From assembly GCA_009839725.1 (NCBI GenBank), contig VXPF01000070.1:1-39770 (forward strand): a stretch of 39,770 nt of DNA. Reading direction: 5' to 3'. The notes beneath the pieces are model-generated. The model did not search any database, was not told the DNA's origin, and saw only the letters and a list, made by a program, of their open reading frames with translations. Made by a program: the position numbers and the translations under genes. Shown here one piece after another: positions 11,931 through 19,629 of the stretch (position 1 is the first letter of the stretch; the number at the start of each line of letters is the position of its first letter). The DNA is from Dehalococcoidia bacterium (GTDB lineage: Bacteria > Chloroflexota > Dehalococcoidia > Tepidiformales > Tepidiformaceae).

Positions 11931-12010
11931 CTCCGGCAGGATACGCGAAGGCGCCGAACCGGTCGGCGGGAGCGTGTGCTCCAGACCAGGTCGGCGCGAA
12001 GGAGAAGGCT

Positions 12011-12616
12011 ATGCCGAGAGTCAAGGAAGTCGGCGGAATGGAGGGGTTTGGCGGCGTCTACGGCCACCGTCCCGACCTCTTCAAGGGGTTCATGTTCAAC
12101 TACGGCGTGCTGTGGTCCCACAGCACACTCGATCCGCTCCTCAAGGAGCTGATCCGCCTCTACTCGTCCAACACCAACGGTTGCCGTTACTGAATCCCCG
12201 CACGTACTGCTGCGGCGCAGCAGGAAGGCATGACTGAGGAGATGATCCAGCAGGCGCTGGACTTCCGGAACTCCGACCTCCCCGAGCGAACCAAGGTCGC
12301 CCTTGAGCTGGCCGAGGACTTCATCCTCAACCACGCCAACAACGTCGATGACGCGTTCATGGACCGCCTCAAGGAGCACTTCACCGAGGACCAGATCGTC
12401 GAGCTGACCATCGGCATCGGCATCTGGGACTCCGTCCACAAGTTCAACAACGTCTTCGACGTGCCTCCCCCCGTGGAGGACGGCCTCTTCGTCCTCGAGC
12501 GTCTGGCCGACGCCCCCGAGGACATGCAGCACCTCATCACGCACCTCGACGGTGAAGGCAATCCCATGGATCGCTGGGAGCCGGGCGAGGCGGAAGCCGC
12601 GGGAGGCGCCTCCTAG
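12011..12616 (+). CDS. Candidate selenoprotein: carboxymuconolactone decarboxylase (CMD/AhpD-like) with in-frame UGA at residue 61
   Basis: AAGGAG six nt before the ATG starts a reading frame that runs 201 codons if the UGA at 12191-12193 is decoded. The N-terminal part ends NTNGCRY, and the frame continues past UGA as IPARTAAAQQEGMTEEMIQQ, the normal continuation of the CMD fold (redox CxxC helix, then G-x-T-E-E-x-I). The UGA replaces the second cysteine of the CxxC pair, giving Cys58-Arg-Tyr-Sec61. A perfect SECIS-like hairpin begins 13 nt after the UGA (12207-12223). AhpD-like selenoproteins with CxxU-type motifs are known in bacteria; I infer a peroxide- or thiol-redox role. The alternatives are a nonsense mutation or a TGC-to-TGA read error. 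The selenocysteine genes are not in the window. Confidence 0.75.
12207..12223 (+). promoter_or_regulatory. SECIS-like hairpin downstream of in-frame UGA
   Basis: CTGCTGC (12207-12213), loop GGC, GCAGCAG (12217-12223): a perfect 7-bp GC-rich stem with a guanine-first apical loop. The loop starts 20 nt after the UGA, close to the 18-nt spacing in the E. coli fdhF SECIS. Bacterial SelB recognises such a hairpin immediately 3' of the UGA, with G in the apical loop. No comparable hairpin is required by the protein sequence, though its GC-rich Ala/Gln codons could produce one by chance. Confidence 0.65.
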
Positions 12617-15049: not shown

Positions 15050-18000
15050 GTGAGTAGATCGTTCCTCCTCGTGCTCGCGTTGGCTTGTACGTTCGTTGCC
15101 GGCGGAACCTCGCCCGGCAGCGCCCGCACGACCGAGACCGTCCAGGTTGAGGTCCGCGTCTGGCAGAGCATCTCCAATCCCGCCAATCTTGCCCTCAGCG
15201 TCAAACCCGAGGGAGGCCGCTGGTCCTCCTCCAGGCTCAACATGCTTGGGCCCAGCAGGGGGTGGCGCTACAGCGACACACCGGTCGGCGAGATCGAGAT
15301 CAGGATCTTTCAGCGCACATCCAACCAGCTGGACCTGTTCATCAGCGCCCGCCCGCTTGGCGGCCGCTACGCCGACTTCGGCGCGCGGCGCCTGGATATG
15401 GCGGGAACGACCCGCTCTGGCTTGCGTTTCGGCGACACCACCCTCGCCGTACCCGTCCCCAGGACAAGCCCTGAGGTCGTGGCCGTCAGCGCTGGCGTTG
15501 ACTTCACCTGCGCCCTCCTGGATTCCGGCGAGATCACGTGTTGGGGAGACAACCTCTACGGCCAGATCGAGTCGCCCCCCGGCCGCTACATCGCCGTGAC
15601 CGCCGGCGCCGACCACGCGTGCGCGATCAGCGAGTCGGGCCAGCTCGCGTGCTGGGGTCGCGACGACTTCTGGGGCGGCGAAGGCGTCCGCCTGGGCCTG
15701 ACTGACCCGCCCTCGGGCACCTACCGCGCCGTCAGCGCCGCGTGGGAGCACACGTGTGCCCTGCGGGAGTCGGGAGAGGCCGTCTGTTGGGGCGATCCCC
15801 GGTTCACCGACGCCCCCTCGGGGACGTTCGTATCCGTCCACGCGGGCAACGATCACAGCTGCGCCGTGCGGGAGTCCGGCGAGGTCGTCTGCTGGCCCCA
15901 CTCGCACAGCGACGCCGCCGAAGTCCCCGAAGGGGCTCTCACAGGCGTCAGCGCTGGTGGGCAGCACATTTGCGCGCTGCGGGAGTCGGGCGAGGTGGTC
16001 TGTTGGGGCGGGTACCTGCGGCTTCAGATCGAGAGACCCCTGGAGCCCCAGCGATCCCTGAGCGTCGGAAACGGCTTTGCCTGCGCCCTCGACGAGGCGG
16101 GTGAGCTGACCTGTTGGGCGAGTATCGCCCATGCTCCCCCTGGGCGCTTCCGCGCTGTGAGCGCCGGCAACCACCACGCCTGTGCCATCCCCGAGTCAGG
16201 CGGTGTCGTCTGCTGGGAGGAGACGTATGGATTCGGCGCCACCAGGGCTCCCGTCGGGCGCTTCCGCTCCGTCGATGCCGGCAGCGTTCACACCTGTGGC
16301 GTGAGCGAGGCCGGCGAAGTCGTGTGCTGGGGCACCGATCACTACGGCCAGCTGGATGCCCCGCCGGGCTCTTTCCGCGCGGTCAGCGCTGGACAGAACC
16401 ACACCTGCGCCCTCCGCGAGTCCGGCGAGGTCGACTGTTGGGGCACGAACCGCGAGGGGTCGACCAGCGTTCCCGGCGGGCGGTATCGCTCCGTCGAAGT
16501 TGGCTCTGGCCATACCTGCGCGGTGGATGACTCGGGTCGGTTGGTCTGCTGGGGATGGAACTACAACGGTGAGTCCAGCCCGCCCCCCGGCAACTTCCGG
16601 TCAGTGAGCGTCGGCCTCTACCACAGCTGTGCGATCGATGAGTCTGGACAGCTCCGCTGCTGGGGCTGGAACTCCGAGGGCCAGACCGACGCTCCTGCGG
16701 GAACCTACCGCTCCTTGAGCCTGGCCTGGCTCCATAGCTGCGCTGTCCGCGTCTCGGGGGAAATCGACTGCTGGGGCCTGAATGGCTACGGCGAAACCGA
16801 TGCCCCGGACGGCCGCTTTCGCATGGTCAGCGCCGGGACGAACCACAACTGCGCCGTGCGCGAGTCGGGCGAGATCGCCTGCTGGGGAAGCAACAGCAGG
16901 GGCCAGACCGATGCGCCGCCGGGTCGCTTCCGTTCGGTGAACGCCGGCAATCTCTATTCCTGTGGGGTCCGGGAAGCGGGCGACGTGGTCTGCTGGGGCC
17001 ACGGCCCGCACCAGGCCGTTCGCGTGCCGCCCTCGCTCCTGCCCGACGCAGCGGGCCAGGAGCCCGCGACCACGCAGGCGTCCCCCGGAGCCATCGAGGA
17101 GCACGAGGTGCTCGTCAGCGCGGGCGAGGAGCACACCTGCGTCTGGCGCTATCCCGGCCGTGTCACCTGCTGGGGCGAAAACGGCTGGCGCCAGCTCAAC
17201 GTGCCCCACGGCTGGTACCGCTCCCTCAGCGCGGGAGCGCTCAACACTTGCGCCGTCCGCCAGGGTGGCCGGGTCGTCTGCTGGGGCCCCAATACGGCAG
17301 GCATCATCTTTCCCCCCGCGTACGACGATCACCGCACCGTGAGCGTTGGAGGCGACCGCCACACGCCCTTCGCATGCGCCCTTCGCGAGAGCGGCTGGCC
17401 CTCCTGCTGGGGCAACAACGACCACGGCCAGGTGGATGCGCCGGCCGACTTCTTCCGGTCCGTCACGACCGGTGGGGCGCACGCCTGCGCCATCCTTCGC
17501 AGTGGCCAGGTCAGCTGCTGGGGAGCCAACGGTTTCGGCCAGTCCGACGCCCCCGCCGGAGCCTTCCGGTCCGTGGTCGCCGGATGGCGCCACACCTGCG
17601 CCCTTGCCGAGTCGGGCGAAGTGTCCTGTTGGGGCGACGACGCGAAGGGCAAGCTGGACGCGCCCCGGGGCGCCTTCCGCTCCCTCAGCGCCGGATGGTG
17701 GCACGCCTGCGGAGTGCGCGATTCCGGCGCCGTCGAGTGCTGGGGCGCGAACGACAGCGGTCAGGCGGACGTCTCGGGGGGCCGTTTCCTCTCGGTGAGC
17801 GCGGGGCCCTTCCACACCTGCGCCGTGCGGCCCTCCGGCGCCGTCGAGTGCTGGGGCTTCGACTCGAACCGCCTGGCCGCGGCGCCCTCGGGCCTCTACC
17901 AGGCCGTGGGCGTCGCGCCTCGCCACAGCTGCGCCCTGCGGCAGTCCGGCGAGATCGACTGCTGGGGCAACAACGACTACGGCCGTACCGACCCGGCCCC

Positions 18001-18733
18001 GGGCGCCTTCCGCTCGCTCTCCGTGGGTGGCCGCCACGCCTGCGCCCTGCGGGACTCCGGGGAGGTCGAGTGCTGGGGCGCCAACGATCACGGCCAGTCC
18101 GACCCGCCCTCTGGCCCCTTCACCGCCGTCGCCGCGGGAGGAGAGGAGCATGGAACTGGAGGGCACACCTGCGCCCTCCGCGAGTCCGGCGAGATCGTCT
18201 GTTGGGGCGGCTTCCCGCCGTTCAACGGCTGGGCCGGCCAGACCGACGCGCCCGCCGGCGCCTTCCGCGCCCTGAGCGCGGGCGGCTACCACACCTGCGC
18301 GCTCCGCGAGTCGGGTGAGGCGGTCTGCTGGGGAGACGCCGGGAACAATGACCTGGGCCAGACCGATGCGCCGGCCGGCTCCTTCCGGGCGCTCAGCGCG
18401 GGCGCCTACCACACCTGCGCCCTCCGCCAGTCTGGCGAGGCGGTCTGCTGGGGGAACGAGTTCGACCACGGGGTCACGCCGCCCGCCGGCCTCTTCACCG
18501 CCCTCAGCAGCGGGAAGTTCCACACCTGTGGACTGCGCGAGTCGGGCGAGGCGGACTGCTGGGGCCAGAACGACTCCGGCCAGCTCGATGCGCCGCCAGG
18601 GCCCTACCGCTCCATCGGCGCCGGGGAGCACCACACCTGCGCCGTCAGGCAGTCGGGCGAGCTCGCCTGCTGGGGCGCGACCCACCCGGCCGTGTCCGTT
18701 CCCGCCGGCTTTGCATCCGTGGCCGGGGAGTGA
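15050..18733 (+). CDS. Giant secreted protein with 28 RCC1-like repeats
   Basis: A 1227-residue protein starting at GTG (GAGGAG 7 nt upstream). A signal peptide (SRSFLLVLALACTFVAGG, likely cleavage after PGSA, about residue 25) directs export. Residues 28-140 hold two copies of an unrecognised beta module (V-x-VRVWQ...GGRW, I-x-IRIFQ...GGRY). Then 28 RCC1-like repeats follow, each about 36-40 residues, of the form HTCALRESGEVxCWGxNxxGQxDAPxGxFRSVSAG, with two cysteines per repeat. Fourteen repeats lie before a Pro/Ala linker at about 663-685 and fourteen after. RCC1 repeats fold as seven-bladed propellers, so 28 suggests four. Function is unknown; binding or adhesion is plausible. No sorting signal is visible. 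Confidence 0.9.
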   Translation: MSRSFLLVLALACTFVAGGTSPGSARTTETVQVEVRVWQSISNPANLALSVKPEGGRWSSSRLNMLGPSRGWRYSDTPVGEIEIRIFQRTSNQLDLFISARPLGGRYADFGARRLDMAGTTRSGLRFGDTTLAVPVPRTSPEVVAVSAGVDFTCALLDSGEITCWGDNLYGQIESPPGRYIAVTAGADHACAISESGQLACWGRDDFWGGEGVRLGLTDPPSGTYRAVSAAWEHTCALRESGEAVCWGDPRFTDAPSGTFVSVHAGNDHSCAVRESGEVVCWPHSHSDAAEVPEGALTGVSAGGQHICALRESGEVVCWGGYLRLQIERPLEPQRSLSVGNGFACALDEAGELTCWASIAHAPPGRFRAVSAGNHHACAIPESGGVVCWEETYGFGATRAPVGRFRSVDAGSVHTCGVSEAGEVVCWGTDHYGQLDAPPGSFRAVSAGQNHTCALRESGEVDCWGTNREGSTSVPGGRYRSVEVGSGHTCAVDDSGRLVCWGWNYNGESSPPPGNFRSVSVGLYHSCAIDESGQLRCWGWNSEGQTDAPAGTYRSLSLAWLHSCAVRVSGEIDCWGLNGYGETDAPDGRFRMVSAGTNHNCAVRESGEIACWGSNSRGQTDAPPGRFRSVNAGNLYSCGVREAGDVVCWGHGPHQAVRVPPSLLPDAAGQEPATTQASPGAIEEHEVLVSAGEEHTCVWRYPGRVTCWGENGWRQLNVPHGWYRSLSAGALNTCAVRQGGRVVCWGPNTAGIIFPPAYDDHRTVSVGGDRHTPFACALRESGWPSCWGNNDHGQVDAPADFFRSVTTGGAHACAILRSGQVSCWGANGFGQSDAPAGAFRSVVAGWRHTCALAESGEVSCWGDDAKGKLDAPRGAFRSLSAGWWHACGVRDSGAVECWGANDSGQADVSGGRFLSVSAGPFHTCAVRPSGAVECWGFDSNRLAAAPSGLYQAVGVAPRHSCALRQSGEIDCWGNNDYGRTDPAPGAFRSLSVGGRHACALRDSGEVECWGANDHGQSDPPSGPFTAVAAGGEEHGTGGHTCALRESGEIVCWGGFPPFNGWAGQTDAPAGAFRALSAGGYHTCALRESGEAVCWGDAGNNDLGQTDAPAGSFRALSAGAYHTCALRQSGEAVCWGNEFDHGVTPPAGLFTALSSGKFHTCGLRESGEADCWGQNDSGQLDAPPGPYRSIGAGEHHTCAVRQSGELACWGATHPAVSVPAGFASVAGE
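15476..18730 (+). repeat. Tandem coding repeats of the RCC1-like protein (28 units of about 110-120 bp)
   Basis: Degenerate tandem repeats with recurring words such as TGCGCC...GAGTCGGGCGAG...GTCTGCTGGGG. The later units (about 17,900-18,700) are more alike than the early ones, consistent with recent internal duplication. The array is interrupted once, at about 17,040-17,105, by a non-repeat linker. Confidence 0.9.
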
Positions 18734-18743
18734 CCGCCCCGGC
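18722..18743 (+). terminator. Hairpin across the RCC1 gene stop codon
   Basis: GCCGGGG (18722-18728), loop AGTGACCG, CCCCGGC (18737-18743): a 7-bp GC stem followed by TTGAG. The TGA stop lies in the loop. A plausible but U-poor terminator facing the convergent phosphotransferase gene. Confidence 0.35.
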
Positions 18744-18762
18744 TTGAGACACTCGCGCTCGG

Positions 18763-19629
18763 CTAGCGAGGCTCCCCCGCCCGCCGCTGCGCCACCCGTA
18801 CCAGCTCCTCGACTCCCGCCACCGGGTCGGGAATTCCGGCATCGGGTGGGCTGATCGCCCGCACGATGGCCAGGTGCTCGATCGCCCGTACCACCACCCA
18901 TCGCCACATCAGCTCCGTGTCGAATCGGGCCACGCTCCGATACGCCCGCAGGTAGGTCCCCGTCGCGATCGGCCGGAAGAACCGCGTGATCACCTTCAAG
19001 GCCGGACTCGGGTCCAGCGGTTCTCCCAGCCATAGCAGCGCCGTCGAGCGCGCCACGTCCGACTCGATCGGCCCCGCTGCGCAGAACCCCCAGTCGATGA
19101 CCACGCGCCGCCCGCCGGGCTCCAGCAGGATGTTGCCCGGGTGGAAGTCGCTGTGGCAGAAGCGGTCGCCCCCCTGCAGCTCCGACAGCGTCTCCTCGGC
19201 GATGGCCGTCAGGTGCGGTGGGACCTCCACGTTCGCGATCCACTCGCGCACCCGCTCGTGTGCTGTCGCCAGCCCGTCCGGGGCAGGGAGCGCGTTCAGG
19301 CGCGCGTGGATGCGCCCCGTCGACCACGCCTCCCGCGGCATCAGCCACGGCTTCCGCCCCACGAGGTCCAGCAGATTCTCCCCGTCGATGCGCTCCATGA
19401 TGGAGCCTTCTCGTCCCGCCAGGCTCATCGCCTCGCCGATGCGCGGCGCCGGAATGCCCCCTGCCAGCGCCGCCGGAATCGCGATCCGCTCCGGCTCGAT
19501 GCTCCGCTCGTGCCCCTCGCGGAAGAGCCGCAGCGCCTGCCCGTCCTCCCACGCGAAGATCTCCGCCTCGTACCCCTCCCCCAGCTTCTCGAGGCTCGCC
19601 AAGTCCACGTTGGGGCCGCCCCCAGTCAC
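18763..19629 (-). CDS. Aminoglycoside phosphotransferase-family kinase (APH/choline kinase fold)
   Basis: A 288-residue small-molecule kinase of the APH family. The N lobe begins LGEGYEAEIFAWEDGQALRL. The catalytic loop FCHSDFHPGNILL has the HxDxxxxN pattern, and VVIDWGFCAAG is the metal-binding IDW motif. I take the GTG at 19629, which overlaps the stop of the upstream gene as GTGA (19626-19629) and is therefore translationally coupled to the tRNA nucleotidyltransferase-family gene. The family phosphorylates aminoglycosides, sugars, choline and others; context does not favour drug resistance. The much longer upstream frame is antisense-like and overlaps a real gene. Confidence 0.85.
   Translation of the reverse strand: MTGGGPNVDLASLEKLGEGYEAEIFAWEDGQALRLFREGHERSIEPERIAIPAALAGGIPAPRIGEAMSLAGREGSIMERIDGENLLDLVGRKPWLMPREAWSTGRIHARLNALPAPDGLATAHERVREWIANVEVPPHLTAIAEETLSELQGGDRFCHSDFHPGNILLEPGGRRVVIDWGFCAAGPIESDVARSTALLWLGEPLDPSPALKVITRFFRPIATGTYLRAYRSVARFDTELMWRWVVVRAIEHLAIVRAISPPDAGIPDPVAGVEELVRVAQRRAGEPR

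Follow-up and report, generated by a model that had tools for sequence, protein, structure and literature searches.

AhpD-like selenoproteins in which the CxxC redox motif is replaced by CxxU have been described since 2005. In the accessible parts of the published reports, 27 such sequences of COG2128 are given for the Sargasso Sea in 2005 (PMC1088965), and the GOS analysis of 2008 distinguishes "AhpD-like 1" (COG2128, 299) from "AhpD-like 2" (pfam02627, 70) (PMC2398784). Likewise, a 2005 table of predicted recoding includes a CMD match for Geobacter sulfurreducens (PMC1242214), and a 2026 review lists both AhpD-like and CMD-like CxxU selenoproteins (PMC13188914), again as far as the accessible portions of these sources go. 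The kind of selenoprotein considered here is thus already known, as the first-pass annotation of this DNA had stated. At the level of listings and abstracts, literature on selenoproteins in Chloroflexi metagenomes contained nothing on the present protein, and no paper was found on the groundwater YciW selenoprotein.

The stretch of DNA analysed (39,770 nucleotides; hereafter the window) is contig 159 of genome G000, a 2.83 Mb draft in 160 contigs that is 92.5% complete. It holds a CMD/AhpD-like frame with an internal TGA, and we place at roughly 96% the probability that this is a functional selenocysteine gene, in which UGA61 would be decoded by SelB and tRNA-Sec(UCA) under the direction of a hairpin 13 nt downstream to yield an oxidoreductase of the CMD/AhpD fold whose redox pair is Cys58-Arg-Tyr-Sec61. 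Support computed here comes from conservation of the TGA, covariation in the SECIS element, the Sec machinery, the family and the fold. What looked like a broken gene is likely to be a functional selenoenzyme.

Gene structure and protein family

The sole in-frame TGA of the 201-codon frame is residue 61, three residues after Cys58 (NGCRY-TGA), and is followed by IPARTAAAQQEGMTEEMIQQ (Table 1). The frame, its single TGA, the position of the cysteine, the AAGGAG start and the perfect 7-bp hairpin with a GGC loop had all been proposed from the first reading of the DNA, and each is present in the sequence. The accompanying claim that conventional gene calling would split the gene also holds for the plain ORF list, in which one frame ends at 12193 and another starts at 12230.

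Table 1. Positions of the selenoprotein gene and its features in the window
Feature	Positions	Strand	Remarks
CMD/AhpD-like selenoprotein gene, 201 residues	12011-12616	+	TGA read as Sec; end stop TAG 12614-12616
Shine-Dalgarno-like AAGGAG	11999-12004	+	6 nt ahead of ATG at 12011; read in the sequence
Redox motif C58-R-Y-U61	12182-12193	+	Cys codon TGC 12182-12184; Sec codon TGA 12191-12193
Arg65 codon CGT	12203-12205	+	Occupies the place of the AhpD histidine
SECIS hairpin CTGCTGC-GGC-GCAGCAG	12207-12223	+	7-bp stem; loop 12214-12216; 13 nt after TGA

Profile searches place the product in the CMD/AhpD family. PF02627 (CMD) scores 45.5 bits (cut-off 23) over residues 23-89, a match that extends through the TGA. 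Taken separately, residues 1-60 reach 19.7 bits, and the 128-aa ORF from 12230 (residue 74) has no match to CMD with E-values allowed up to 1. The AhpD core model TIGR00778 is also above its cut-off (38.5 versus 27.8 bits). The best NCBIfam match is NF053654, GroundWater_YciW (65.1 bits over residues 16-152; cut-off of 310 not reached), and TIGR01926, a peroxidase-related enzyme model, gives 40.3 bits over residues 17-138 (cut-off of 81.8 not reached). Because none of the NCBIfam selenoprotein models matching this protein, or either of two gammaproteobacterial homologues scanned (L055 and L063), reached its cut-off, the subfamily is probably often mis-annotated.

A structure was predicted from a 29-row alignment with Cys substituted for Sec. 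The predicted model is mainly helical (pLDDT 86.9, pTM 0.82) and matches the AhpD-like structures 2gmy, 2ijc, 2o4d, 7xw1, and 2prr, with predicted-model TM-scores by target length of 0.76-0.87 to chains of the first four. Both the PDB sequence search and the structure comparison also recovered the Bmp8 debrominase as a relative. Together, Pfam, NCBIfam, the PDB sequence search, and the predicted structure support the family first proposed, and point to a protein of the CMD/AhpD superfamily with a predicted AhpD-like helical fold. CxxC followed by His is the motif that defines classical AhpD, in which this histidine has a role, and it is also seen in PA0269. The window protein departs from it in having CxxU followed by Arg65, a residue that is nearly invariant (at least 90%) in the 29-row alignment.

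Conservation of the TGA codon and of the downstream hairpin

Homologues were collected by a search of 60 genomes, G000 included, and by a separate contig scan that gave 30 named loci (9 from Dehalococcoidia, Chloroflexi, or Tepidiformaceae MAGs and 21 from Gammaproteobacteria). Each genome was counted once, with L047-L054 and L062 taken as G001-G008 and G016 on the basis of identity or coordinates, and two partial gammaproteobacterial loci that stop short of the codon (L075 and L076) were left out of the count. TGA occupies the aligned codon in 31/31 genomes found to have a homologue at least 54% identical that covers the site, namely 12 from the window's family within Chloroflexota and 19 from Gammaproteobacteria, all with Cys at position 58. 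Judging by record names, many of these bacteria are probably marine. All nine genomes of the genus (G000-G008) carry the gene with one TGA, and no Cys form was found among homologues at 54% identity or above. The next relative, L013, is 45% identical and has TGC. Among the 15 homologue rows without TGA, seven have TGC (L013, L019-L022, L024, and L026) and eight a Glu or Asp codon. Of the two outcomes anticipated at residue 61, in-frame UGA or Cys, the alignment gave TGA in close relatives and Cys in several distant ones; TGC or TGT in close relatives had been named as evidence against selenocysteine, and TGA was found there in every genome. Among 393 genomes of the class searched, 21 matched with an E-value no higher than 1e-14.

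Over codons 62-175, downstream of the TGA, the nine genus members differ 1117 times at third positions versus 279 and 237 times at the other two, and their 36 pairs show 855 synonymous versus 484 nonsynonymous codon differences, in an ungapped comparison whose register may be lost over the final codons of L008 and L009.

Published limits for the bacterial SECIS element, as given in the accessible part of a recent review, are a loop of 3-9 nt, a stem of 4-16 bp, a UGA-to-loop distance of 16-37 nt, G in the first two loop positions, and a minimum free energy (MFE) of -7.5 kcal/mol or lower (PMC13188914). The hairpin fits all of these, with a 3-nt loop, a 7-bp stem, GG, a UGA-to-loop distance of 20 nt, and -14.2 kcal/mol (the MFE of a 50-nt stretch), which bears out the earlier expectation of a bacterial SECIS within 12191-12240. 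Rfam gave no SECIS family match in the whole window at the gathering threshold, and only two weak matches to 12100-12330 at E up to 10, each to an unrelated family and on the opposite strand. Of the 758 TGAs on the two strands of the window, 15 (2%, that at 12191 included) precede a perfect 7-bp hairpin with bacterial SECIS geometry. The folding energy is ordinary (z = -0.05) and was rejected as evidence. At the level of sequence comparison, it is conservation and covariation, not energy, that carry the case for this putative element.

These were assessed in an alignment (A1) of 30 of the 52 distinct TGA-bearing sequences, those above 34.3% identity. A1 leaves out L014, L083, L084, and L095 by name, a choice made after the hairpins had been seen; its rows below 54% identity are L093, L078, L082, and L089, and the 26 rows at or above 54% are independent of that choice. 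The stem is intact in all 30 sequences (210/210 cells paired), each with a GGC loop, and compensatory double changes occur in four of the seven pairs (16 cells), while two pairs never vary. Hence the hairpin, whose lack of conservation would have spoken against the first-pass reading, is conserved with compensatory changes. None of 500 shuffles reached the paired percentage, the number of double changes, or the covariation score of A1, and a further one of the five measures, the number of additional pair types, was reached by 127/500; slid control versions of the stem pair at 13-70%. Outside A1, L014 keeps 7/7 pairs. Among all loci at 54% identity or above, in which some genomes are duplicated, 7/7 pairs are kept in 40/40, and six further loci keep all seven pairs in five cases and two pairs in L102. 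In contrast, the 15 non-TGA homologue rows keep only 0-4 of the seven.

The commonest double change, from G-C to U-A or U-G, occurs in 11 sequences, all at least 54% identical. The two bases involved are the first ones of codons 67 and 71, and the change converts A67/Q71 to S67/K71 or S67/E71; this coupling at a stem pair argues that the RNA stem constrains the protein at these residues. Such a constraint would make the gene a clear case of RNA structure within a coding region shaping amino-acid evolution. The double changes at alignment columns 20/30 and 23/27 each come from one sequence, L093 and L063, respectively.

Selenocysteine machinery and alternative readings of the codon

A search of G000 for selA, selB, selC, and selD, as the first-pass annotation had suggested, found all four above their cut-offs. 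The tRNA-Sec scores 71.1 bits (gathering score 47) and has the anticodon tca; SelA scores 514.2 bits (cut-off 267.9), SelB 292.9 bits (cut-off 242.25; a 461-codon frame near the end of a 13324-base contig), and SelD 333.5 bits (cut-off 125), the last with an in-frame TGA of its own. SelA is also above its cut-off in all 20 genomes reached via L055-L074 (19 gammaproteobacterial genomes and L062, which is G016). Across the 60 genomes, 48 have a CMD match; 26 of these have a TGA form, and 22 of the 26 have SelA, compared with 11 of the 22 that lack a TGA form (Fisher p = 0.014), where TGA forms are internal stops confirmed at residue 61 in part of them. The four genomes with a TGA form and no SelA match (G022, G026, G030, and G037) are 54-85% complete, and G037 has tRNA-Sec and SelB above cut-off. 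The association is only moderate, and SelA co-occurrence was rejected as a strong test.

Further TGA-bearing genes were seen in G000. TGA occupies this codon in five of its six CMD matches, and four of its ten AhpC-TSA matches have an in-frame TGA (on contigs C130, C41, and C117, the last in two places); no AhpC-TSA match was obtained among the seven window ORFs scanned. Given the in-frame TGAs of AhpC-TSA and SelD, the selenoproteome of G000 is probably sizeable, and the TGA-bearing CMD and AhpC-TSA genes point to a selenium-rich redox metabolism. In the window itself, 287 TGAs are flanked on either side by 20 or more open codons; for 36 of them a similar spanning stretch exists in one or both of two relatives, and 16 of these have TGA in at least one relative. 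Only the TGA at 12191 was judged convincing among these 16, the others resembling gene ends or antisense frames.

The CMD paralogues differ in what follows their TGA. Some carry other perfect hairpins, for example CCTGGGC-GTT-GCCCGGG and CTTCCCCT-GTC-AGGGGAAG. Among the paralogues in G000, L080 and L081 have different hairpins with GTT or GTC loops, and L078, the copy on contig C61 (38% identical protein), has the same CTGCTGC-GGC-GCAGCAG stem. L078 and L081 fold their hairpins with ordinary z values, and L079 folds no stable hairpin (z = +1.61). A tandem CMD pair is present at L079 1884-2854 (G000:C26:26404-27368) and also at L083, L086, L090, L095, L096, and L014, with the aligned stretches about 90-140 bp apart; 13 of the 60 genomes have such neighbouring genes among their listed matches. 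By the codons at the residue-61 place in seven genomes, the upstream member has Glu or Asp (CxxE/CxxD) and the downstream member TGA (CxxU). No uninterrupted stem longer than 4 bp was found in the downstream gene of L079, L083, L086, L090, L094, and L095. The two products could together form a heteromeric enzyme in which one subunit carries selenium.

Three other explanations of the internal TGA were weighed against selenocysteine. An assembly or sequencing error that turned TGC or TGT into TGA, or a gene decaying after a recent nonsense mutation, might be entertained for a draft in 160 contigs. However, the TGA recurs in 31/31 genomes found, in two phyla and down to 55% protein identity, and the nine genus members differ over codons 62-175 chiefly at third positions, which makes error or decay exceedingly improbable. 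Alternatively, the TGA may be a true stop, with the C-terminal part re-initiated as a separate product at the ATG at 12230, where the 128-aa ORF indeed begins. This is very unlikely given that the CMD match spans the TGA whereas neither residues 1-60 nor the 128-aa ORF matches above the cut-off, that residues 62-73, ahead of the ATG, are conserved in relatives, and that the covarying hairpin would be left without a purpose.

That TGA is instead read as Trp or another ordinary residue, in an alternative code, is scarcely credible. No support for such a code was found, and TGA is also an ordinary stop here, ending four of the eight window ORFs checked; TAG ends the other four, the selenoprotein gene included. 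(At E 0.001, Pfam gave no match to one of the TGA-ended four, the candidate 983-codon ORF at 16601-19552 on the minus strand, which lies near a response regulator gene.) Furthermore, the distant homologues L013, L019-L022, L024, and L026 have TGC (Cys) rather than a Trp codon at the site, and a tRNA-Sec with anticodon tca is present.

Proposed function, origin, and relation to known systems

With the TGA read as selenocysteine, selenium would be inserted at residue 61, as we infer from the sequence comparisons above. By homology with AhpD, Sec61 holds the second CxxC position and may act as a selenolate that attacks peroxide or an oxidised partner; Cys58 would then resolve it by forming a selenenylsulfide, which a thiol system would reduce in turn. 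The second CxxC cysteine of Mycobacterium tuberculosis AhpD is Cys133, and the histidine that follows it is His137. With Sec61 at the place of Cys133, a selenolate nucleophile with Cys58 resolving would be expected. According to one report, it is Cys133 of M. tuberculosis AhpD, and not Cys130, that bonds AhpC and is the better exposed of the two; for AhpD of B. thailandensis, greater importance is reported for the first cysteine (PMC6626918). This contrast speaks against a simple rule of cysteine order, and the catalytic order of Sec61 and Cys58, the substrate, and the biochemical function are proposed here by analogy. The AhpC-TSA proteins of G000 are possible partners.

The genus loci L001-L009 all retain an SDR gene upstream and a histidine kinase gene downstream, and in L011/L062 the gene adjoins a kinase of 42% identity. 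Across six loci (L011, L055, L057, L060, L063, and L074), the ten flanking genes were of ten kinds; no operon partner emerged from the flanking genes examined, and the neighbourhood was rejected as a guide to function.

In a 35-protein tree, sampled from one peptide-pattern scan and with L047-L054 standing for the genus, the 19 sequences from Gammaproteobacteria fall together on one side of a branch (support 100/98) next to the genus clade. The genus clade itself has support of 92/81, short of the program's star, and the other Chloroflexota sequences lie outside it, in a tree whose midpoint root serves for drawing only and whose outer rows drew a long-branch warning from the program. With moderate support, this topology suggests that the subfamily was likely passed once between phyla, from Chloroflexota to Gammaproteobacteria. 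A fuller scenario is offered tentatively, at somewhat less than even odds: an obligate-Sec CxxUxxxR AhpD subfamily may have arisen in Chloroflexota of the class Dehalococcoidia and moved once, together with its SECIS element, to Gammaproteobacteria, with the SECIS coupling residues 67 and 71.

Of the described selenoproteins, the AhpD-like proteins of the Sargasso Sea and GOS sets are of the same AhpD/CMD family and, in the accessible descriptions, share CxxU and a bacterial SECIS right after the UGA; the comparison with the window protein, whose genome is grouped with Chloroflexota, is by description only. NF053654 (YciW-related (seleno)protein) is the best NCBIfam match, yet its score lies far below the cut-off. 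TIGR01926, which the accessible part of the 2026 review pairs with an AhpD-like CxxU selenoprotein (PMC13188914), has the same CxxU and likewise falls short. M. tuberculosis AhpD (1gu9, 1knc) belongs to the same superfamily, and U61 lies at its second CxxC cysteine; the window protein differs in having Sec for Cys and Arg for His, and the structural match is weak (E 0.3-0.8). The closest solved structures by both sequence and fold are the AhpD-like proteins PA0269 and Atu0492 (2ijc, 7xw1, and 2gmy), at 22-25% identity, of which PA0269, unlike the window protein, has CxxC followed by His.
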